Shown: piece by piece, positions 6,165-42,137 of the stretch
Numbering within the stretch: the first letter of the stretch is position 1
Layout of the letters: every line of letters begins with the position of its first letter
IMG/VR virus record: IMGVR_UViG_3300044691_000200
Location: 1 to 42,137 of that record
DNA: 42,137 nucleotides
Origin: a virus
Direction: 5' to 3' (one strand)
The notes under the pieces: model-generated
Told to the model about the DNA's origin: nothing
The model's input: only the letters and a program-made list of their open reading frames with translations
Database searches by the model: none
Translations under genes and position numbers: made by a program

Positions 6165-6316
6165 CCGCCCCCGTTGTCTTCACCAACTCCCGCCAACCCT
6201 GGCACCTAAGCGAAACACCCCACGACGGAGACCGGCACACGAAAGACGGGTTCTACGCGGTCGGGCAGCTTTGGGGTCGCGTTGCTGAGGGACATACGGA
6301 ACAGGGGGAAGCATGA
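6161..6316 (+). CDS. Hypothetical small protein
   Basis: This is a 51-residue frame from GTG at 6161, overlapping both neighbours (GTGA and ATGA). It is polar with WHLSETPHDGDRHTKDGFY and no clear fold. It exactly fills the gap between the neighbouring genes, which supports it as a coupled gene. Confidence 0.5.
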   Translation: MTAPVVFTNSRQPWHLSETPHDGDRHTKDGFYAVGQLWGRVAEGHTEQGEA

Positions 6317-7008
6317 GCGCGCCAAAATTGCTTGATCTTTTCTCCTGCGCCGGAGGTGCAGCGATGGGCTACCACAAAGCCGGATTCGAAGTTACCGGGG
6401 TAGATAAGGACAAGCAGAAAAACTATCCATTCGAGTTCATCCAAACCGACGCGATCGAGTACCTCTTCGAGCACGGCCATGAGTACGTTGTGCGTCATGC
6501 TTCCCCGCCTTGCCAACTGTTCTCGACCACGAAGCATTCACACGCTGACAAAGGAGAGCACCCCGATCTGCTGGTGCCAACCCGTAAAGCACTGATCGAG
6601 GTCGGCGGCATCTATGTAATTGAGAACGTCGAGGGCGCGCCCCTGATTGACCCGCTCACGCTATGCGGCTCCGAGTTTGGGCTCCGAGCTCCCGATGTTG
6701 ACGGCCTGCCGCTGGCACTCAAACGGCATCGCCTGTTTGAGTCGAACGTCTGGCTGGTCGGTGCGGGTGGGTGCGCCCACGACAACACGCAAATCGCAGG
6801 CTCATACACGGCTGGTCGACACCGCACTCCCGAGCACAGGGATAACCCTGCAAGGCGAGGCGGCTACACGCCCGCGCTATCCGTTCGGGCAGCGCTCCTC
6901 GGCATCGACTGGACCATGAACGAACATGAACTAGCCCAGGCCATCCCCCCCGCGTACACGGAGTTCATCGGCGACCAACTGATCAAGGCTTTGGCGGTGG
7001 CGGCATGA
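6313..7008 (+). CDS. DNA cytosine-C5 methyltransferase (orphan)
   Basis: This encodes 231 residues. SAM-binding motif I is LLDLFSCAGGAAMGYHKAG; the catalytic motif IV is SPPCQ (the Cys attacks C6 of cytosine); motif VI is ENV (YVIENVEGAP); KRHRLFES matches motif VIII; and IPPAYTEFIGDQL matches the end region that closes the SAM site. The protein is short with a small target-recognition part, as in compact phage C5 enzymes. No restriction endonuclease is encoded nearby, so it probably protects phage DNA or alters gene control. Confidence 0.9.
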   Translation: MSAPKLLDLFSCAGGAAMGYHKAGFEVTGVDKDKQKNYPFEFIQTDAIEYLFEHGHEYVVRHASPPCQLFSTTKHSHADKGEHPDLLVPTRKALIEVGGIYVIENVEGAPLIDPLTLCGSEFGLRAPDVDGLPLALKRHRLFESNVWLVGAGGCAHDNTQIAGSYTAGRHRTPEHRDNPARRGGYTPALSVRAALLGIDWTMNEHELAQAIPPAYTEFIGDQLIKALAVAA

Positions 7009-9163: not shown

Positions 9164-9369
9164 CCGCCGCATTCCGCTACAACCCCTGCGGTTGTGGCTG
9201 CGGTCTCCTGGCGCAGGGGAAGTTCTGTCGGGGCCACAACCATGTGCCCATATTCGCACCGGCCGGGATGACCCCTGAGCGGGCGTTGCAGATTGCGTGT
9301 GACGTGTTCGATGCGGCATCGCCGGTGTTGCAGTTGCGGTGGTTATCGAGGATGAGGAGAGACCTGTGA
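9160..9369 (+). CDS. Cys-rich small protein
   Basis: This encodes 69 residues from GTG at 9160. The N-terminus CGCGCGLLAQGKFCRGHNH is a compact Cys/His cluster, seen at the start of many phage small proteins. The rest (PERALQIACDVFDAASPVLQ) is helical. It is coupled to the methyltransferase gene by GTGA. The function is unknown. Confidence 0.65.
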   Translation: MTAAFRYNPCGCGCGLLAQGKFCRGHNHVPIFAPAGMTPERALQIACDVFDAASPVLQLRWLSRMRRDL

Positions 9370-9806
9370 GCCGCATCGTATCGAGCACCAACGTGTTCCT
9401 GTCATCCCAGACCGTGGAGTGGGCCACCCCTCAAGGAGTGTTCGACAAGCTCAACGATGAGTTCGGATTCACGATCGATGTCGCGGCCACCCCGACGAAT
9501 ACGAAGTGTCCGAGGTTCTACACGATAGACGACGACAGCCTTTCGCAATCATGGGATAGGGAGACTGTCTGGTGTAATCCGCCGTATGGCCCACAGCTCA
9601 CGCATTGGGTTTACAAGGCGGCTACGTCTGCCGCGACGGTGGTCATGTTGGTGCCAGCGCGGACTGATGTGAAGTGGTTCCACAACTACGTGCTCGGTCG
9701 TGCAGACATCCGGTTCATCAAGGGGCGCCTGACGTTCGGTGAAGCGAAAGACCCGGCACCGTTCCCGTGCATGCTGCTCATTTTCAGGAATGAGGGCATC
9801 GCATGA
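9366..9806 (+). CDS. DNA N6-adenine methyltransferase (phage Dam family)
   Basis: This encodes 146 residues from GTG at 9366. The family start (EWATPQGVFDKLNDEFGFTIDVAAT, read in parts) and the catalytic NPPYG at about residue 74 after VWC are diagnostic of the phage N-6-adenine methyltransferase family. Later VVMLVPARTDVKWFH and GRLTFG belong to the same family pattern. The enzyme methylates adenine in a short DNA site. It is the second methyltransferase in the operon, consistent with protection from host restriction. Confidence 0.9.
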   Translation: MSRIVSSTNVFLSSQTVEWATPQGVFDKLNDEFGFTIDVAATPTNTKCPRFYTIDDDSLSQSWDRETVWCNPPYGPQLTHWVYKAATSAATVVMLVPARTDVKWFHNYVLGRADIRFIKGRLTFGEAKDPAPFPCMLLIFRNEGIA

Positions 9807-13550: not shown

Positions 13551-14227
13551 ACGACGACAGCAATCACCTGTTAGATGCGGTCGATGCCCTGACGAAACCG
13601 CAGAAGCACAAAGTCATCCAAGACGGACCCCTTGGAACCGGGCTGGCTGGCCAGAAAATTGTGAAGGTCGAGCTGCCGCCGTTGCTCCTGCAACTCGATG
13701 AGGCAATCCGCGGCAGCATCGGCATTGGAGGCTCCGGGGCGTTGAAGTCTCAACGCAACATGCTCGACGCCGATGCGCTGTTCCGGTTCTCGCTGATCAG
13801 TTCGCAGATCAAGGACTGGGCACGCCAGGTGAAAGCACCCGTCACCCCTGACGCTTCTGAGACGTTGCGGGCATGGTATCTGCGGTACACCGACAAGACC
13901 GCCAACGGGGCCGGGGAACGGTTTTACGTCAAGCAGTTGCGGTCATGGAAGACGCAGATTGAGACGAAGCTCGAACCGCCTCGTGTTCGGGAGCTGCTGG
14001 ACGGGTCGAACCAGTCACAGGCGTGCCCGATCTGCGGGGCAACAGAATGGTGGAACCCTGACGACCCGAAACTTCCGTACCGTCACCCGGTGGTGATCCT
14101 GTACCGGCCGTACAAGTCAGGGTGGGTTGAGGACGCGCAGGGCATGTGTCGCGCGTGCGGTGAGGTGTGGTCTGTGCGCCAGTTGGCATGGGACATTGAG
14201 CAGGCCGCAAAGGCAGCAAACGCATGA
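13547..14227 (+). CDS. Hypothetical protein with C-terminal zinc ribbon (DUF7341-like)
   Basis: This encodes 226 residues. A helical N-terminal region (LLDAVDALTKPQKHKV, LLLQLDEAIRGSIGIGGSG) resembles a conserved actinophage protein I associate with DUF7341. The C-terminus has ACPICGATEWW and GMCRACGEVWSV, a two-CxxC zinc ribbon like those of replication or transcription factors. It may act in DNA metabolism, but this is inference. Confidence 0.7.
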   Translation: MNDDSNHLLDAVDALTKPQKHKVIQDGPLGTGLAGQKIVKVELPPLLLQLDEAIRGSIGIGGSGALKSQRNMLDADALFRFSLISSQIKDWARQVKAPVTPDASETLRAWYLRYTDKTANGAGERFYVKQLRSWKTQIETKLEPPRVRELLDGSNQSQACPICGATEWWNPDDPKLPYRHPVVILYRPYKSGWVEDAQGMCRACGEVWSVRQLAWDIEQAAKAANA

Positions 14228-14475
14228 CACGTTCGAAGCGCGGAAGGATTGCGGTCGCTGGACGGGAGTGTCACTACTGCGGCGGCCCAGCCGATACCCG
14301 CGATCACATCGTTCCGGTCAGCCGCGGAGGCACCTATGCGCAGATCAACCTTGTGCCGAGCTGCAAACGCTGCAACGAAAGTAAAGCGGACGACTGGCCG
14401 ACTTGCAATTGCGAGTATTGCCAGTACGCGATCGCGTACTTCGGGGAGTTGATCGCGCGCGAATCCAAGGGCTGA
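14224..14475 (+). CDS. HNH endonuclease
   Basis: This encodes 83 residues. CHYCGGPADTRDHIVPVSRGG and NLVPSCKRCNESKADD form a complete small HNH nuclease (DH, N and H positions with two CxxC zinc pairs). It is the last gene of the tightly packed early block; a promoter-like element and the tRNA follow. Confidence 0.85.
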   Translation: MTRSKRGRIAVAGRECHYCGGPADTRDHIVPVSRGGTYAQINLVPSCKRCNESKADDWPTCNCEYCQYAIAYFGELIARESKG

Positions 14476-14496
14476 CGACACGCCGTCCAGAGGTGC

Positions 14497-14525
14497 TTGA
14501 CTATATAGCCTCCGACCTATCTAAT
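14497..14525 (+). promoter_or_regulatory. Promoter-like element upstream of tRNA-Trp
   Basis: TTGACT at 14497-14502 and TCTAAT at 14520-14525 are 17 bases apart, close to the sigma-70 consensus and unusually good for this GC-rich genome. It lies in the first sizeable gap after the early operon and would drive the tRNA and following accessory genes. Confidence 0.6.
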
Positions 14526-14559
14526 TGGTGGTGCGTTCCTACACCCATCGAATCAGTCA

Positions 14560-14636
14560 GGTTAGGGACGTTTCCCATTTCTTCGGCTGCTCTCCCCACA
14601 CGTGTTATCGACCTAACCGGGATCGAAGCAGCCGAA
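14560..14636 (+). other. Interleaved inverted repeats (possible RNA pseudoknot)
   Basis: GGTTAGG at 14560-14566 pairs with CCTAACC at 14612-14618, and TTCGGCTGCT at 14582-14591 pairs with AGCAGCCGAA at 14627-14636. The arms alternate (A, B, A', B'), the topology of a pseudoknot or of two mutually exclusive stems. It lies between the promoter-like site and the tRNA and has no coding gene. Confidence 0.45.
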
Positions 14637-14641
14637 CACCC

Positions 14642-14716
14642 ATCGGCGTAGCTCAGTCTGGCCAGAGCGCTCGTCTCCAAAACGAGAAGTCGCAGGTTCG
14701 AATCCTGCCGCCTTTG
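14642..14716 (+). tRNA. tRNA-Trp (CCA), degenerate acceptor stem
   Basis: The D arm (GCTC/GAGC), anticodon stem CTCGT/ACGAG with loop CTCCAAA (anticodon CCA), and T arm GCAGG-TTCGAAT-CCTGC are perfect. G73, expected for Trp, is present. The acceptor stem pairs only at positions 4-7 with 66-69 and at 1-72; positions 2-71 and 3-70 mismatch. No CCA is encoded. It could be a decaying or specialised tRNA. Confidence 0.8.
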
Positions 14717-14720
14717 CCTT

Positions 14721-14793
14721 TCCTTGTCGCTTATCCCCGCCTTGATCGAGCGGTCTGGGTACAGCCCGTGCAGGTCGGGCCGACAAGGAGTTG
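14721..14793 (+). terminator. Long-loop hairpin after the tRNA
   Basis: TCCTTGTCG at 14721-14729 pairs with CGACAAGGA at 14781-14789, followed by GTTGTTTT. The 51-base loop is long for an intrinsic terminator, so it may instead be a processing or structural element. A smaller GCCGC-GCGGC hairpin precedes the AAAGGGG ribosome site of the next gene. No other signal is seen in this 142-base gap. Confidence 0.35.
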
Positions 14794-14858
14794 TTTTGCA
14801 ATGCTTCTCCGCGCGATGCGGGGTAGGCCGCGTGATGCGGCTAAGCGAAAGGGGCAAC

Positions 14859-15215
14859 ATGCCCAGTCAAGTAATCCAGCGCTCCAAGGTCATTGTCCAG
14901 TCACCATTCGACACAGAGGGCATCGATCCGGCCGAAGCAGCAGTCGGCACCTACGAAGTGCCACTCGGGTCGCGCGACTATCCGAAGGACTTCCCCAAGG
15001 GATCACGCCTGACGGGCGGGCCACAGGTTCACGTGGCATGGCAACGTGCGGAGAACAGCGCCGAGGCCTCGCACGACGGTTGGGTGCAGGTTCACATCGA
15101 GAACGAAGCCAAGGGCGAGCATCTCGTGAGTGACGTTTTCACGCGCCGCGAACTCCTCGATTTCATCCGCGTTCTGCGACGTGCTTGCGCTGCCGCATTC
15201 GAGGCGGACGAGTAG
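14859..15215 (+). CDS. Hypothetical accessory protein
   Basis: This encodes 118 residues from ATG at 14859, selected because AAAGGGG lies just upstream; a longer frame would run back over the tRNA end. The sequence looks like a single beta-rich domain (VHVAWQRAENSAEASHDGWVQVHIENEA, read in parts) ending in a helix (RRELLDFIRVLRRACAAAF). It has its own promoter region and is not overlapped by neighbours, as expected for cargo. I recognise no family. Confidence 0.65.
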   Translation: MPSQVIQRSKVIVQSPFDTEGIDPAEAAVGTYEVPLGSRDYPKDFPKGSRLTGGPQVHVAWQRAENSAEASHDGWVQVHIENEAKGEHLVSDVFTRRELLDFIRVLRRACAAAFEADE

Positions 15216-15222
15216 CAGAGAG

Positions 15223-15257
15223 GGGCGCGAGCGCCATTCGGGTTGGTTCTCGCGCCC
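15223..15257 (+). terminator. Hairpin downstream of 15215
   Basis: GGGCGCGAG at 15223-15231 pairs with CTCGCGCCC at 15249-15257, a strong 9-bp GC stem with a 17-base loop. It sits 8 bases after the stop codon. The following ACCTTTC is only weakly T-rich, so termination may be partial. Confidence 0.5.
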
Positions 15258-15295
15258 ACCTTTCGCTGTCAGGTCACATCAAGGGAGACACAACA

Positions 15296-15508
15296 ATGGC
15301 CGATTCAATCGCCACAGCACGCGAACGTTACTTCACCGCATCCGAGGATCCCCGAGTCGTCCAGTTGCGCGAGATCATCGTCCAGCTCGGCGCAACGATC
15401 GATGACCTCGTACCCAACGGCCGCAACAAGTCCCTCGCGTTGACTGCCCTCGAAGACGTGCAGATGCGCGCCAACCGTGGCATCTTCGCCACAGGCCCAA
15501 CCGCCTGA
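15296..15508 (+). CDS. Acb2/Tad1-hairpin-like small protein, candidate cyclic-nucleotide sponge
   Basis: This encodes 70 residues, with AGGGAGACACAACA just before ATG at 15296. Two helices are expected: DPRVVQLREIIVQLGATIDDLV, then after PNGRNKS the helix LALTALEDVQMRANRGIF. This arrangement (helix, P-x-GR turn, LALT-LE-x2-M-x-AN helix) resembles the Acb2/Tad1 hairpin family. Acb2 proteins (for example T4 Vs.4) are hexamers that bind cyclic di- and trinucleotides and block CBASS defence. The resemblance is by eye and ligand binding is inference. Similar uncharacterised copies are common in phages. Confidence 0.6.
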   Translation: MADSIATARERYFTASEDPRVVQLREIIVQLGATIDDLVPNGRNKSLALTALEDVQMRANRGIFATGPTA

Positions 15509-15526
15509 CTCGGTTAGGGAGACACA

Positions 15527-15718
15527 ATGGCAACGACGCCAACGACGTTCGCTTGCGGGAACGCGCCTGCGCTAGAAACAGCCACATGTCATTGTGGGCA
15601 GCCTCCTATTTGGCATCCCGCCGAGTCGTCCTTCGCTAGCGGTGGATTCACCCGCAGCCTCTGCGAACACTGCGACGCAGTACGTTGCGACGCTTACCCC
15701 GGAGACTGCGGGCGATGA
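15527..15718 (+). CDS. Cys-rich small accessory protein
   Basis: This encodes 63 residues from ATG at 15527 behind AGGGAGACACA, the same leader as the previous gene. CHCGQPPIWHP and SLCEHCDAVRCDAYPGDCG provide many cysteines for zinc binding. It overlaps the next gene by ATGA. The function is unknown; being next to the Acb2-like gene suggests a shared accessory operon. Confidence 0.6.
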   Translation: MATTPTTFACGNAPALETATCHCGQPPIWHPAESSFASGGFTRSLCEHCDAVRCDAYPGDCGR

Positions 15719-15873
15719 CCACCATCGGCCCCGCGAGCGTCACCAACCCGTCCTACCCAGACGGTGCACCCCTACTAGCGACACTCAGTGATGACCCAGG
15801 GCGCGTTCTACGCTCGAGCGAAGTCATCGGGTGGAACAGCGACACAACCGAATCGACTGACGCAGTAGAATAA
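15715..15873 (+). CDS. Hypothetical small protein
   Basis: This encodes 52 residues from ATG at 15715, overlapping the previous stop. It is polar and probably mostly disordered (TNPSYPDGAPLLATLSDDPG), ending in an acidic tail. Coding evidence is limited to coupling and position. Confidence 0.45.
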   Translation: MTTIGPASVTNPSYPDGAPLLATLSDDPGRVLRSSEVIGWNSDTTESTDAVE

Positions 15874-15886
15874 ATGTACGAATAAA

Positions 15887-15914
15887 CCCCGCGTCTGCGA
15901 CTAACAGACCGGGG
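15887..15914 (+). terminator. Hairpin before the homing-type HNH gene
   Basis: CCCCGCGTCTG at 15887-15897 pairs with CAGACCGGGG at 15905-15914 with one bulged base and a 7-base loop. It follows an AT-rich stretch just after the stop at 15873 and may end the small accessory operon. There is no T-run. Confidence 0.4.
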
Positions 15915-15942
15915 CCATGACCGAACTGATTTGGAGTTCGAT

Positions 15943-16695
15943 ATGCAGAAGCCTACCCGTCCGATCGATGTCGCCGCGTTGGGCATAACCTCTGACTTTC
16001 TTCTCGAAAGATCACATGAGGTCATCCGAGACCCACAGATGGGCGCCTGTCGTGAATGGGATGGCCTAACGAACCCTGCGGGATATGGGCTGATTGCGTC
16101 ATACCGATTCGGCAATCTGTTCGCACATCGAGTCAGCTACGCGCTCGAGAATTCCGACCCGGGCCAACTGATCATCTGCCACCGCTGCGACAATCCGCCA
16201 TGCATCGAGCCAACCCATCTATTTGCAGGCACCTACAAAGACAACTCCCTAGATGCAAAATCCAAAGGGCGAACCGCGCATGGAGCGGGCGTTGCGAACG
16301 CGGCCATTGTCGACTCGGACGTTTCAGATATTCGGCGTATCCACGCATCCGGCATGGCCAGCCAAGACGATCTTGCAGAGACCTACGGCATGAGCAAGGG
16401 TAGCGTCAGTCGCATCATCCGCAACGAAATGTGGCAGCACGTCCCGCCATTCATCGGTCCCGCCTTCCCGACATCGAAACGACGTCCAGGATTCAGGCAG
16501 TCACCTCGACGAGCTCTTGATGAGAACCAAGTCGAATGGGCGCGCAAGCAAGTCGCCGCAGGATTGAGCCTAAACAAAACAGCCGCAGCGCTTGGCGTAG
16601 CACGCGAGACAGTAAAGCTCGCAATCAGCACAACCTCGAAGGCCCGAACGGAGAATCTGCATGGAAGATCCAGACTGGCGCCTTCCGGCAGGTAG
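15943..16695 (+). CDS. HNH homing-type endonuclease with HTH tail
   Basis: This encodes 250 residues from ATG at 15943, with TTGGAG upstream as ribosome site. CREWDGLTNPAGYGLI, HRVSYAL and CHRCDNPPCIEPTHLFAGT are the zinc-binding loop and catalytic centre of HNH-3-type homing nucleases. Two HTH-like segments follow: QDDLAETYGMSKGSVSRII at about residue 145 and GLSLNKTAAALGVARETVK near the C-terminus, which would help sequence recognition. Such genes are self-spreading. Its last 35 bases overlap the next gene. Confidence 0.82.
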   Translation: MQKPTRPIDVAALGITSDFLLERSHEVIRDPQMGACREWDGLTNPAGYGLIASYRFGNLFAHRVSYALENSDPGQLIICHRCDNPPCIEPTHLFAGTYKDNSLDAKSKGRTAHGAGVANAAIVDSDVSDIRRIHASGMASQDDLAETYGMSKGSVSRIIRNEMWQHVPPFIGPAFPTSKRRPGFRQSPRRALDENQVEWARKQVAAGLSLNKTAAALGVARETVKLAISTTSKARTENLHGRSRLAPSGR

Positions 16696-17378: not shown

Positions 17379-17735
17379 ATGCGTGTCTGCTCTGTCCCTG
17401 GTTGCGCCACCATCTACGACACCACACAGTCACGCTGCCCCACCCACGAGACAGCAGCCAAACAGAAGCACTGGGCACACACCAAGGCATACAACACCAA
17501 AGGCCACCGCATCACCTTCCGCCTCGCAGTACTACGACGCGACCCCATCTGCACCATCTGCCACCTCGCACAGTCCGTCGTCGCAGACCACTACCCATCA
17601 GGCAGAGACGAACTAATCGAACTCGGCCTCGATCCCAACGACCCACAACATGGACGCGGACTCTGCACCCCATGCGACAAGACACAGACCGCAGCACGGC
17701 AACCCGGTGGATGGAACAACCGCCAGCAGCAGTGA
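17379..17735 (+). CDS. HNH endonuclease beside the terminase
   Basis: This encodes 118 residues. CSVPGCATIYDTTQSRCPTH is an N-terminal zinc knuckle; FRLAVLRRDPICTICHLAQS, VADHYPSG and HGRGLCTPCDKTQTA make the HNH core. HNH proteins next to TerS/TerL are common in such phages, and in well-studied systems they stimulate terminase cutting during packaging. That role is inferred here from position. Confidence 0.85.
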   Translation: MRVCSVPGCATIYDTTQSRCPTHETAAKQKHWAHTKAYNTKGHRITFRLAVLRRDPICTICHLAQSVVADHYPSGRDELIELGLDPNDPQHGRGLCTPCDKTQTAARQPGGWNNRQQQ

Positions 17736-17925: not shown

Positions 17926-18462
17926 ATGGCTTCTGGCGGTGCACGCAACAGGTCTGGCCCTCAACCTGATCCGCGGTCTGGTCGGTCTGATCGTCGCGGC
18001 TATTCCTTGACCGCTTTGCCCTCTGAGGGTTTCCGCGGTGAGGTCCCCAGGTTTCCGCTACAGCCGATCGTGATGTTCCTCGACCACTTCGAGGGCACTG
18101 GTCGTGAGCGGACCAAAATCAAAGAGCGCGACGACGGTGAGACCGAATCGTTCCGCGACCGCGAGCAGGATGTCTGGGCTGAGGCGTGGAGCACTCCGCA
18201 GGCGTGCGCATGGTCAATGGAATCCTGGCGTTGGCCTGTCGTGGGCGAATACTGCCGGCTGAAGACGATCGTGGAGTTCGATCCGAGCGCGTCGGCGGCT
18301 CTGGTCGGCCAGTTGCATCGTTATCGCGACCAGCTCGGCCTAACTCCGGCCGGGTTGAAAGATAACGGTTGGGCGATCGCGGCGGACGAGGTTGGCGCGA
18401 AGCGGGAGCAGTCTCCTGCGCGTCTTGCCCCGGTTCGCCGCCTCCGTGCGGCTCGTGACTGA
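17926..18462 (+). CDS. terS: Terminase small subunit
   Basis: This encodes 178 residues. ATG at 17926 is chosen because the protein then begins MASGGARNRSGPQPDPRSG, the typical start of actinophage small terminases; GTG at 17917 adds three residues. SLTALPSEGFRGEVPRFPL, the EQDVWAEAWSTPQACAW region and FDPSASAALVGQLHRYRDQLGL fit the family. The subunit recognises phage DNA and guides the large subunit. It overlaps terL by 8 bases. Confidence 0.85.
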   Translation: MASGGARNRSGPQPDPRSGRSDRRGYSLTALPSEGFRGEVPRFPLQPIVMFLDHFEGTGRERTKIKERDDGETESFRDREQDVWAEAWSTPQACAWSMESWRWPVVGEYCRLKTIVEFDPSASAALVGQLHRYRDQLGLTPAGLKDNGWAIAADEVGAKREQSPARLAPVRRLRAARD

Positions 18463-20206
18463 ATTCGTTGTCGACTTCCCCACTCTGGGGGATTTGGGCG
18501 AGGCGTGGATTCGGCAGCACTGTCGGGTGCCGCAGGGATTCACTCGCGGCAAGCCATTTGAGATGGCTGATTGGCAGTTCTGGTGTCATGCGAATCGGTA
18601 TCGGGTTCGCGACGGTGCGGTCTTCATCCCACCTGAGCGTGTGGGTCCAGATGAGCCGCCTGTTTTGAACCAGGCATTCTTCTACCGCATGACGATGGTG
18701 GTCGCGCCGCAGAAGACAGGCAAAGGGCCCTACTCCGCCACGCAGGTGGCGTTCGAGGCGTGTGGTCCTTCCGTCTTCGCTGGCTGGGCAAAGGAGGGCG
18801 ACTTTTACGCCTGCTCCGATAACGGGTGTGACTGTGGGTGGGAGTATTCCTACATCGAAGGCGAGCCGTTGGGGATGCGGCACCCGTCTCCACAAGTTCA
18901 GATCACCGCCAACTCCGAAGACCAAGCGGACAACATCTACAAACCGCTCCGGGCGATGATCCAGCTCGGCCCGTTGAAGAACCTGCTTGCGGTACGCGAG
19001 GGATTTATCCGCATCGTCGGACTGTCAGACCAGGAAGACCTTGACCGCATCGACGTCGTAACGTCTTCGGCCCGCTCACGACTCGGTAATCCGATCTCGG
19101 ATGCTGAGCAGGATGAGGTTGGCCTGTACACGAAGTCGAACAAGATGCTCGCCACCGCGGACGCGCAGGCCCGCAATGCTGCGGGCATGGGTGGTCGCAC
19201 ACATCTGACAACAAATGCGTGGGATCCAACCGAGAATTCATACGCCCAGCAGATTTACGAAGCCCACGAAGACGACGTATTCGTCTTCTACCGCAACCCG
19301 GACGAGTTTCTGCGTGGCGAGGACGGCCACCCCCTCAAATATTCGGTTGCTGCCGATCGGCGGAAGATTCACGAGTACGCCTACGAGGGTTCGTGGTGGG
19401 TTCCCATGGATTCCATTGAGGCCCAATCGCGAAGCCTGATGAAACGCGACCCCGCACAGGCGGAACGGTTCTTCGGCAACCGTCTGGTCTCCGGCTCCGG
19501 CAAATGGGTAACCGTCGAGGACTGGGACACCAAGAAGGGCATCGAGCACTTCGTCGTGGCCCCCCGGACCGCGGTCTGTCTCGGGATGGACCTGTCGAAC
19601 AACAATGACTGGACGGGCATCCGCCTTGAAACGGCTGACATGTACCAGTTCACCCCGACATACAACGTGGGCGGCGATCTTCGGCCAACCGTGTGGAATC
19701 CGGCCCTGTTCGGCGGTTTCATCCCTCGCGGTGAAGTCAGATCCGCGATCGACTACTTGGCAATCGAATATCGAATAGTTCGCGCCTATATCGATCCGGC
19801 CGGCTCAGCGATGGGTGCCGTGGCGGATGCGGACGTTGAAGACGATTCATGGCGAACTGAGCTTTCGCAGTGGGCGGCGAAGTACGGGCCGAAGGTCTTT
19901 ATGCCGTGGTCGTGCGCACGGGTAACACCGACTCACGCGTCCCTTGAACAACTCAGGTCCGCAATTCGCAACCCGGAGAGCAATTTCCGTCACGACTGGG
20001 ATGAAGTGACTCGGCTCCACATCGGCAATGCGGTGATGGTCGCCAAAACGGCCGGCCGATATGTCATCGGCAAACCGTGGGGTGCTGATCACCAGAAGAT
20101 CGACCAAGCGATGTCCTCAATGCTCGCCCATGAGGCAGCGATGGACGCGATCGCCGCAGATGAATTCACCGCCCCGATTGACAACACCGTTCTCGTTCTC
20201 AGATAG
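18455..20206 (+). CDS. terL: Terminase large subunit
   Basis: This encodes 583 residues from GTG at 18455 within the terS end (GTGACTGA). The ATPase carries a Walker A-like APQKTGKG at residues 84-91 and an acidic Walker B candidate around ISDAEQDEVG. The C-terminal nuclease has LGMDLSNNNDW and later RAYIDPAGSA. It cuts concatemeric DNA and drives it into the prohead through the portal. A short insert with CSDNGCDCGWEYSY after the Walker A region could bind zinc. Confidence 0.93.
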   Translation: MTEFVVDFPTLGDLGEAWIRQHCRVPQGFTRGKPFEMADWQFWCHANRYRVRDGAVFIPPERVGPDEPPVLNQAFFYRMTMVVAPQKTGKGPYSATQVAFEACGPSVFAGWAKEGDFYACSDNGCDCGWEYSYIEGEPLGMRHPSPQVQITANSEDQADNIYKPLRAMIQLGPLKNLLAVREGFIRIVGLSDQEDLDRIDVVTSSARSRLGNPISDAEQDEVGLYTKSNKMLATADAQARNAAGMGGRTHLTTNAWDPTENSYAQQIYEAHEDDVFVFYRNPDEFLRGEDGHPLKYSVAADRRKIHEYAYEGSWWVPMDSIEAQSRSLMKRDPAQAERFFGNRLVSGSGKWVTVEDWDTKKGIEHFVVAPRTAVCLGMDLSNNNDWTGIRLETADMYQFTPTYNVGGDLRPTVWNPALFGGFIPRGEVRSAIDYLAIEYRIVRAYIDPAGSAMGAVADADVEDDSWRTELSQWAAKYGPKVFMPWSCARVTPTHASLEQLRSAIRNPESNFRHDWDEVTRLHIGNAVMVAKTAGRYVIGKPWGADHQKIDQAMSSMLAHEAAMDAIAADEFTAPIDNTVLVLR

Positions 20207-35804: not shown

Positions 35805-36260
35805 CTAGCCGACCGTGATACTCACACCCGACTTCGCCTTAGCTCGGTCGTACTTCACAACCCCTCGCGCCACATTCCCAACATGCACCCCGTAGAACGC
35901 CGAACTAGCTGGCACCTTCACGGAGAACTTGTAGACACACGTTGCCCCGATGATCGTCGTCGGATCGTCCCCTGCGACGAGCACTCCGGCCTGAAGCGTG
36001 GTGAGACCGATCGTCTTACCGCCCGCATCAGACACGTCCACCTCAGCAGCGACAGCAATGTCCTCGAAGTTGGTGGCTGACGCACATTGGTGGCCGATCA
36101 CATGGCCCGTGTCGCCTGGTGCGACATAAGTGAACGATGCGGGTGTTGACACATCCCCCGCGAGGACGAAAGTCTGCGGCTTCGGCTTGACGGTCGCGCA
36201 ACCGCCCGCGAGCACGGCGACCGCTACGGCCGTAACCACGACGAGGGAGATCCGATTCAT
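35805..36260 (-). CDS. Secreted lipoprotein (possible superinfection exclusion)
   Basis: This encodes 151 residues; the start at 36260 is chosen because it begins with a signal peptide: MNRIS, a hydrophobic core (VVVTAVAVAVLAGGC) and the lipobox AGGC at about residue 21. A longer frame would hide the signal. The mature part is beta-rich (TSTPASFTYVAPGDTG-like, GATCVYKFSVKVPASSAFYGV) and resembles small Ig-like DUF4352-type lipoproteins. Opposite orientation and place next to attP suggest expression in the lysogen. Blocking of related phages is inference. Confidence 0.78.
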   Translation of the reverse strand: MNRISLVVVTAVAVAVLAGGCATVKPKPQTFVLAGDVSTPASFTYVAPGDTGHVIGHQCASATNFEDIAVAAEVDVSDAGGKTIGLTTLQAGVLVAGDDPTTIIGATCVYKFSVKVPASSAFYGVHVGNVARGVVKYDRAKAKSGVSITVG

Positions 36261-36612
36261 GGCACTCACAGTACCGGTAGCCAGTTCCAGAGTCGATCCC
36301 CTCAAAGGGGCTGGCAACATTTCTGTCAATGGCTGTCGGAATGGCTATACCGGCTGGCTGTGATTCCGGCTGATTCCCTGTATCTATATGGTGCACCCCC
36401 CGGGACTTGAACCCGGAACCCACTGATTAAGAGCTATACGGACTGCCTTATATAGGGCAGTAAATAGGCGGAAGTTCGCGGAAATACAGGGGTACGCCTG
36501 TTACAGGACGTTACACGGGGGTATCGCAATGGCTATACAATGGCTATAGTTGAATGGTTCATATAGGTCAAACTGTCCTAAATGGAACAAACCAACAGGA
36601 AGAAGCAAGGAC
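36261..36612. other. 352-base intergenic region with attP and repeats
   Basis: No gene is seen. The region contains the attP core at 36389-36433 and copies of AATGGCTATA at 36340-36349, 36528-36537 and 36539-36548, with weaker copies near 36328 and 36552. The copies flank the core, so they are good candidates for integrase arm sites. The right part is AT-richer than the genome and likely holds promoters. Confidence 0.7.
36389..36433 (-). other. attP core: 3' part of tRNA-Lys (CTT)
   Basis: On the minus strand the sequence reads from the anticodon loop (CTCTTAA, anticodon CTT) through a perfect T arm (CCGGG-TTCAAGT-CCCGG), the acceptor 3' strand, A73 and CCA. The 5' half of a tRNA is missing and the bases before the loop do not pair as an anticodon stem. 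This is the usual form of an attP that rebuilds the host tRNA gene on insertion. Confidence 0.85.
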
Positions 36613-41850: not shown

Positions 41851-42137
41851 GCACCACCGTCACTACGCAGCAGGAACTCACAGCCGCTCTCGCGGATGAG
41901 ACAGTGCGCGAGATCGTCATCAACTCCCCCAAGAGTGTGGTGCTTGAGATCACGGACAGCAAGGACAAGACCGTCCGCGCCTCCAACTCATCGACCGTCT
42001 ACGCCTACGGCTCATCGACCGTCTACGCCTACGGCTCATCGACCGTCCGCGCCTCCGACTCATCGACCGTCCGCGCCTCCAACTCATCGACCGTCTACGC
42101 CTACGGCTCATCGACCGTCCGCGCCTCCGACTCATCG
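41847..42137 (+). CDS. SSTV-repeat protein (5' part; continues at base 63 through 836)
   Basis: ATG at 41847 overlaps the previous stop. The N-terminal 47 residues (TTQQELTAALADETVREIV, INSPKSVVLEITDSKDKTV) are a small beta-type cap. The 8-residue repeats begin at 41988 and are cut by the end of the window after six full units. With the 62-base overlap merged, the frame continues without shift into the 1-836 part. The cap-plus-repeat layout suggests that the repeats stack on the first domain (inference). Confidence 0.85.
   Translation, partial: MSTTVTTQQELTAALADETVREIVINSPKSVVLEITDSKDKTVRASNSSTVYAYGSSTVYAYGSSTVRASDSSTVRASNSSTVYAYGSSTVRASDSS
41988..42137 (+). repeat. Tandem 24-bp coding repeats, right end
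   Basis: Six full units (YAYG, YAYG, RASD, RASN, YAYG, RASD types) and a partial seventh. The last two full units and the partial one fall in the 62-base overlap with the left end, so about 20 distinct full units remain in the merged gene. A degenerate TVRASN unit precedes the tract. Confidence 0.95.
42076..42137. repeat. Terminal direct repeat, right copy (identical to 1-62)
   Basis: These 62 bases equal bases 1-62 and share codon phase. A longer overlap was tested by eye at the earlier SSTVYAYG unit (from 41988) and fails because the next unit differs, so 62 is the full match. Confidence 0.85.

Follow-up and report, generated by a model that had tools for sequence, protein, structure and literature searches.

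A short acb2-like gene between a tRNA and the terminase

The window analysed here, the whole of a 42,137-base IMG/VR virus record, holds an open reading frame that begins with ATG, ends with TGA and encodes a protein of 70 amino acids (MADSIATARERYFTASEDPRVVQLREIIVQLGATIDDLVPNGRNKSLALTALEDVQMRANRGIFATGPTA). The gene sits among small genes between tRNA-Trp and the terminase, and the main features of the locus are as follows:

15296..15508, + strand: acb2-like gene, with an Acb2/Tad1 hairpin domain at residues 14-64 (PF24729, E=1.9e-14; phrog_1454, E=3e-12; AlphaFold)
15281..15288, + strand: ribosome-binding site AAGGGAGA of the acb2-like gene, read in the sequence
14642..14718, + strand: neighbouring tRNA-Trp (CCA); in Wolfstar, MalagasyRose and Marcie the homologue likewise has tRNAs nearby
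18392..20206, + strand: terminase large subunit, about 2.9 kb downstream (phrog_19179, E=5.6e-165)

The acb2-like gene is separated from the preceding gene by 80 bp (15216-15295) and from the next by 18 bp, and AAGGGAGA stands 7-8 nt ahead of the ATG. It had been described as having its own leader; this is no more than the 80-bp gap, with no promoter found in a sigma-70-type scan of 14400-16100. We prefer the ATG at 15296 because relatives also start with MAES or MADS ahead of an RFFTA motif. A longer in-frame start at TTG 15185 was rejected, since it overlaps the preceding gene and relatives begin at ATG. Compared with its relatives, the gene has a pN below pS in 14 out of 14 cases (pN 0.15-0.32, pS 0.26-0.54), and by this sequence measure it is under purifying selection.

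The surroundings are much as the original prediction had them, with tRNA-Trp(CCA) and small genes of no known family, such as the next gene at 15527-15718, beside the acb2-like gene. A near-identical leader, AGGGAGACACAA(C)AATGG, is common to the acb2-like gene (15281-15298) and this next small gene (15515-15529). Ahead of the terminase, the acb2-like gene is surrounded by three HNH endonuclease genes (14224-14475, 15931-16695 and 17379-17735). Other phages show a comparable placement, with a tRNA nearby, the terminase downstream, or both: the Wolfstar neighbourhood consists of three tRNAs, HNH, the hairpin gene and terminase, that of MalagasyRose of two tRNAs, the hairpin gene and terminase, and on the contig of L002 the hairpin gene is likewise found ahead of the terminase.

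The record also carries portal, head maturation protease, major head, tape measure and integrase genes, and this set of structural and integrase genes, terminase included, makes this a temperate phage of the siphovirus type. Arthrobacter and Gordonia phages have terminases about 50% identical to this one, and a DNA-level comparison of the first 25 kb with known phages gave no match. We infer an actinobacterial host, perhaps one of the Microbacteriaceae judging from the relatives of the acb2-like gene. A 24-bp tandem repeat, CCTCCGACTCATCGACCGTCCGCG, occupies both ends of the record (1-389, about 16 copies; 41969-42137, about 7), so that the contig was probably cut within a single repeat array and the genome is probably near complete, circular or circularly permuted. 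The left-end array is protein-coding, with a DUF7666 domain following it. Two DNA methyltransferase genes (6313-7008 and 9339-9806, PHROG matches) are possibly protective against restriction. Between the tail/lysis genes and the integrase, a minus-strand gene at 35805-36329 encodes a 174-residue protein with a lipoprotein-like signal (VAVLAGGCATV); it had no Pfam or PADLOC match and is a candidate superinfection-exclusion lipoprotein.

Assignment to the Acb2/Tad1 hairpin family

The profile search proposed for the family call gave a clear answer: the protein matches the Acb2/Tad1 hairpin model PF24729 with 54 bits, against a curated gathering cut-off of 27 bits, and residues 14-64 cover profile positions 6-57 of 58. 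Searching the phage's own genome with the profile repeats this match, and none was found in 14 control genomes. On the same model, T4 Vs.4, the proven T4 Acb2, scores 71 bits, the crystallised and biochemically proven protein of Pseudomonas phage p26 66.5 bits and the Wolfstar homologue 48 bits; the comparison with Vs.4 is thereby borne out through a shared model. Direct comparisons made without the Pfam model were weak, which is to be expected of a short, diverged helical domain. A single-sequence PDB search with the protein matched no solved Acb2, the best PDB match of the clade profile, 'Acb2 homolog 43' (9ptq), reached only E = 0.07, and T4 Vs.4, compared directly by profile, gave a probability of 9% (E = 0.0037). 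The placement at sequence level thus goes through the curated profile and intermediate sequences. NCBIfam, PADLOC and plasmid collection searches returned no match for the protein.

The AlphaFold single-chain model (pLDDT 91.6) has helices at residues 2-11, 19-38 and 43-63 and no strands, and so contains the two-helix pattern that had been read from the sequence. The model begins with a short helix, continues with two antiparallel helices that form a hairpin, and has no extra domain; this is the layout of Acb2, for which a short N-terminal helix and two long antiparallel helices have been described (PMC12043709, PMC10419184). Only about 13 residues precede the hairpin domain, and the N-terminal beta-sheet domain of Tad1 is missing, which makes the protein Acb2-type. 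In Foldseek searches, for which a 70-residue helical hairpin is a poor query, no Acb2 entry was among the PDB matches; the best matches in the viral library were mostly named Acb2/Tad1 hairpin, with probabilities up to 1.00 and E-values above 0.05. The protein is confirmed as a member of the Acb2/Tad1 hairpin family, of the Acb2 type.

Relatives are numerous. A tblastn search found them in 79 phage records, 35 of them Microbacterium; scans of virus contigs yielded 22 and then 30 homologous loci, and bacterial genomes, when scanned, gave 7 homologues, six of which belong to Microbacteriaceae (Microbacterium, Leifsonia, Clavibacter and Rhodoglobus). A family-like consensus served as one query for more hairpin-family phage genes, and no conclusion rests on it. 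In the record of Wolfstar, a Microbacterium phage, the product is already called 'cyclic oligonucleotide sequestering protein', and a 2026 announcement lists Acb2 in Microbacterium phage Statler (gp57, known here by annotation only) and other EG-cluster phages (PMC13348362). An Acb2 has also been reported in two cluster E mycobacteriophages, Xandras and BigBubba (PMC11953737). This kind of protein is therefore already known in Microbacterium phages, and the gene at 15296-15508 is a further member. Our search for biochemical tests of Acb2-annotated Microbacterium phage proteins found none. We compared Wolfstar gp30 and its homologues DejaVu gp30 and Jacko gp30 with the 70-residue protein. All three have the PF24729 domain, an RFFTA-like N-terminus lacking the tyrosine and a C-terminal F, at about 47-60% identity over the matched part only; in each of them I replaces N60, and in Wolfstar K also replaces T50.

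Residues of the predicted ligand site

Three ligand-binding residues of T4 Acb2 can be located in the protein by alignment:

15335..15337, + strand: codon of T14, at the place of T4 Acb2 Tyr8, not aromatic
15413..15445, + strand: turn and start of the second hairpin helix, P40-x-G-R43-N-K-S-L-A-L-T50, in which T50 corresponds to T4 T68
15485..15487, + strand: codon of F64, aligned with T4 F82

In T4 Acb2, Y8A disrupts binding (PMC12657218, PMC12657230), F82 stacks on the bound cyclic dinucleotide and F82C lowers binding (PMC12657218), and T68M lowers ligand affinity (PMC12657230). Two of these three residues are kept here, T68 as T50 and F82 as F64. The P-x-GR turn noted originally is present as P40-N41-G42-R43; the helix motif that had been written LALT-LE-x2-M-x-AN lies at residues 47-60, but with three residues rather than two between LE and M (LE-DVQ-M-R-AN). 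T4 Acb2 (Vs.4; PDB 7uq2) is 88 residues long, with Tyr8 and an extended insert separating the helices, whereas the protein described here has the tight P-N-G-R turn and Thr14; the FQPEE tail of T4 Acb2 is resembled by a C-terminal F-x-P in several clade members. In the PaP2/PaMx33-type Acb2 (p26; PDB 8h2j, 8ixz), a P-G-R followed by A-x-x-K-T parallels P-N-G-R followed by A-L-T. Acb2 homolog 43, on which our literature search found no paper, is also short (76 residues) and reads PEGREKS...TKLEEAM.

Across the 23 members of the clade, place 50 is T in 21, place 64 is F in 22 and Y in the remaining one, R43 is invariant, and place 14 is non-aromatic throughout. The p26 protein is the reverse, with the tyrosine of its K-G-Y motif at place 14 and Ala at the place of F64, and the stacking phenylalanine is thus not universal in Acb2. 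In an alignment of 41 sequences, with histidine at place 14 scored as aromatic and p26, which the aligner gapped, placed manually by its KGY and RAIA motifs, 23 are non-aromatic at 14 and aromatic at 64, 16 are the reverse, T4 is aromatic at both and one sequence at neither. The 23 clade sequences lie together on one side of a branch with good support (98/91); they represent one evolutionary event and not repeated covariation, and the count carries no statistical weight. At the N-terminus the register of T14 carries some uncertainty from a length difference directly after place 14, and an alternative register anchored on the following proline likewise puts no aromatic at the Y8 place. Aromatics do adjoin place 14 in the clade (F12/F13-type; Y12/F13), and these neighbouring residues could stand in for the missing tyrosine. 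The tyrosine at the Y8 place is a functional residue that lies outside the curated family definition.

The Acb2 branch common in Microbacteriaceae phages therefore does without the tyrosine on which binding by T4 Acb2 depends; given this loss, its ligand range should not be assumed, and the clade may prefer a ligand different from that of T4 Acb2. We entertain, as a doubtful but possible reading, that this branch rebuilt its ligand site, the pocket aromatic having moved from an N-terminal tyrosine to a C-terminal phenylalanine, together with a changed ligand range. Under the same tentative proposal, the changed range might be a preference for trinucleotides or for an uncharacterised actinobacterial CBASS or Panoptes-type signal. 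If the ligand range does differ, the clade proteins would be useful for finding which CBASS signals matter in Actinomycetota.

Proposed function and alternatives

We consider it very likely that the gene encodes an Acb2-type sponge of a temperate actinobacterial siphovirus, one that sequesters cyclic di- and/or trinucleotides and blunts CBASS; the anti-CBASS activity is assigned by analogy with the family. By homology the protomers would form a compact oligomer, and the Acb2 proteins of T4 and the Pseudomonas phage suggest a hexamer as its probable state; the ligand pockets would lie between protomers. Made during infection, the sponge would bind and hold the cyclic di- or trinucleotides from a CBASS synthase, and with the signal sequestered the host's suicide effector would stay off and the phage could complete its replication. 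The dinucleotide pocket would retain F64 and T50 without the N-terminal tyrosine, a change that may affect the ligand. The gain is a confidently placed counter-defence gene in an uncultured actinobacterial phage, while the family assignment is in itself ordinary.

CBASS is a plausible target because its markers occur in the inferred host group: 300 sampled Microbacteriaceae genomes included 19 with SMODS (CBASS) synthases, 9 with SAVED effectors and 27 with ThsB-type TIR proteins, all counted as family markers and not as complete systems. The hairpin domain itself occurred in 5/300, with four of the five over the cut-off. One genome, Microbacterium sp. BR1 (G010), has a close prophage-type hairpin homologue and three SMODS matches. 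Two adjacent SMODS synthase genes were noted in this genome alongside a prophage-type hairpin gene of the clade (C10:103181-105397 and C6:85673-85834).

The alternative that survives best is a member of the hairpin family that no longer binds nucleotides and has taken another phage role, for example as a small structural or regulatory oligomer. The absence of the dinucleotide-binding tyrosine from the whole clade would fit such a loss, as would L010 and L012, in which the hairpin domain is joined to a phage domain unrelated to it, but the near-invariant T50 and F64 and the invariant R43 suit a retained ligand site, and we regard the loss of binding as unlikely. Still less likely, in our judgement, is a Tad1-like sponge, or a dual one, that sequesters the gcADPR signals of Thoeris as well. 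The original prediction had named both anti-CBASS and anti-Thoeris sponges, and its hairpin family stands, but the Thoeris arm is the weaker. Acb2 and Tad1 share the PF24729 model, and thereby the helical hairpin, and ThsB-type TIR proteins outnumber SMODS in the sampled genomes; however, the gcADPR pocket of Tad1 is built from conserved loops and the C-terminal tail of one protomer together with the hairpin helices of another, and a beta-sheet forms the N-terminal part of that protomer (PMC12043709), whereas the 70-residue product has no such domain and its model no strand at all. A reading of the protein as Tad1 itself was rejected on the absence of the beta domain. A chance open reading frame with a fortuitous helix pattern, conceivable for 70 codons of helical sequence of a kind that also draws noise (weak additional Pfam matches to Sarcoglycan and Hyccin), is refuted to near certainty by the match above the curated cut-off, dozens of homologues, the start with its ribosome-binding site and pN < pS, and the open reading frame is real, as originally called.

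Other hairpin-family genes

Several observations concern hairpin genes elsewhere. Two loci, L010:3698-4198 and L012:3674-4192, carry the hairpin as the C-terminal part of a fusion with a very common phage domain that is normally a stand-alone protein; we found no function for this N-terminal domain, and among 61 readable open reading frames that have it, two carry the fusion. That the domain might be the beta domain of Tad1 was unsupported, given its usual stand-alone form. The fusion may hint at a counter-defence role for it. On the contig of L009 (G003:C1:23889-25938), the hairpin gene lies between the ATPase and nuclease halves of a split terminase large subunit gene. Many hairpin-family genes of Paenibacillus phages are annotated '(putative) phosphomannomutase', for example L076 (Likha, LIKHA_60), whose product scores 88 bits on PF24729; the label is a misannotation that has spread among these phage genes.
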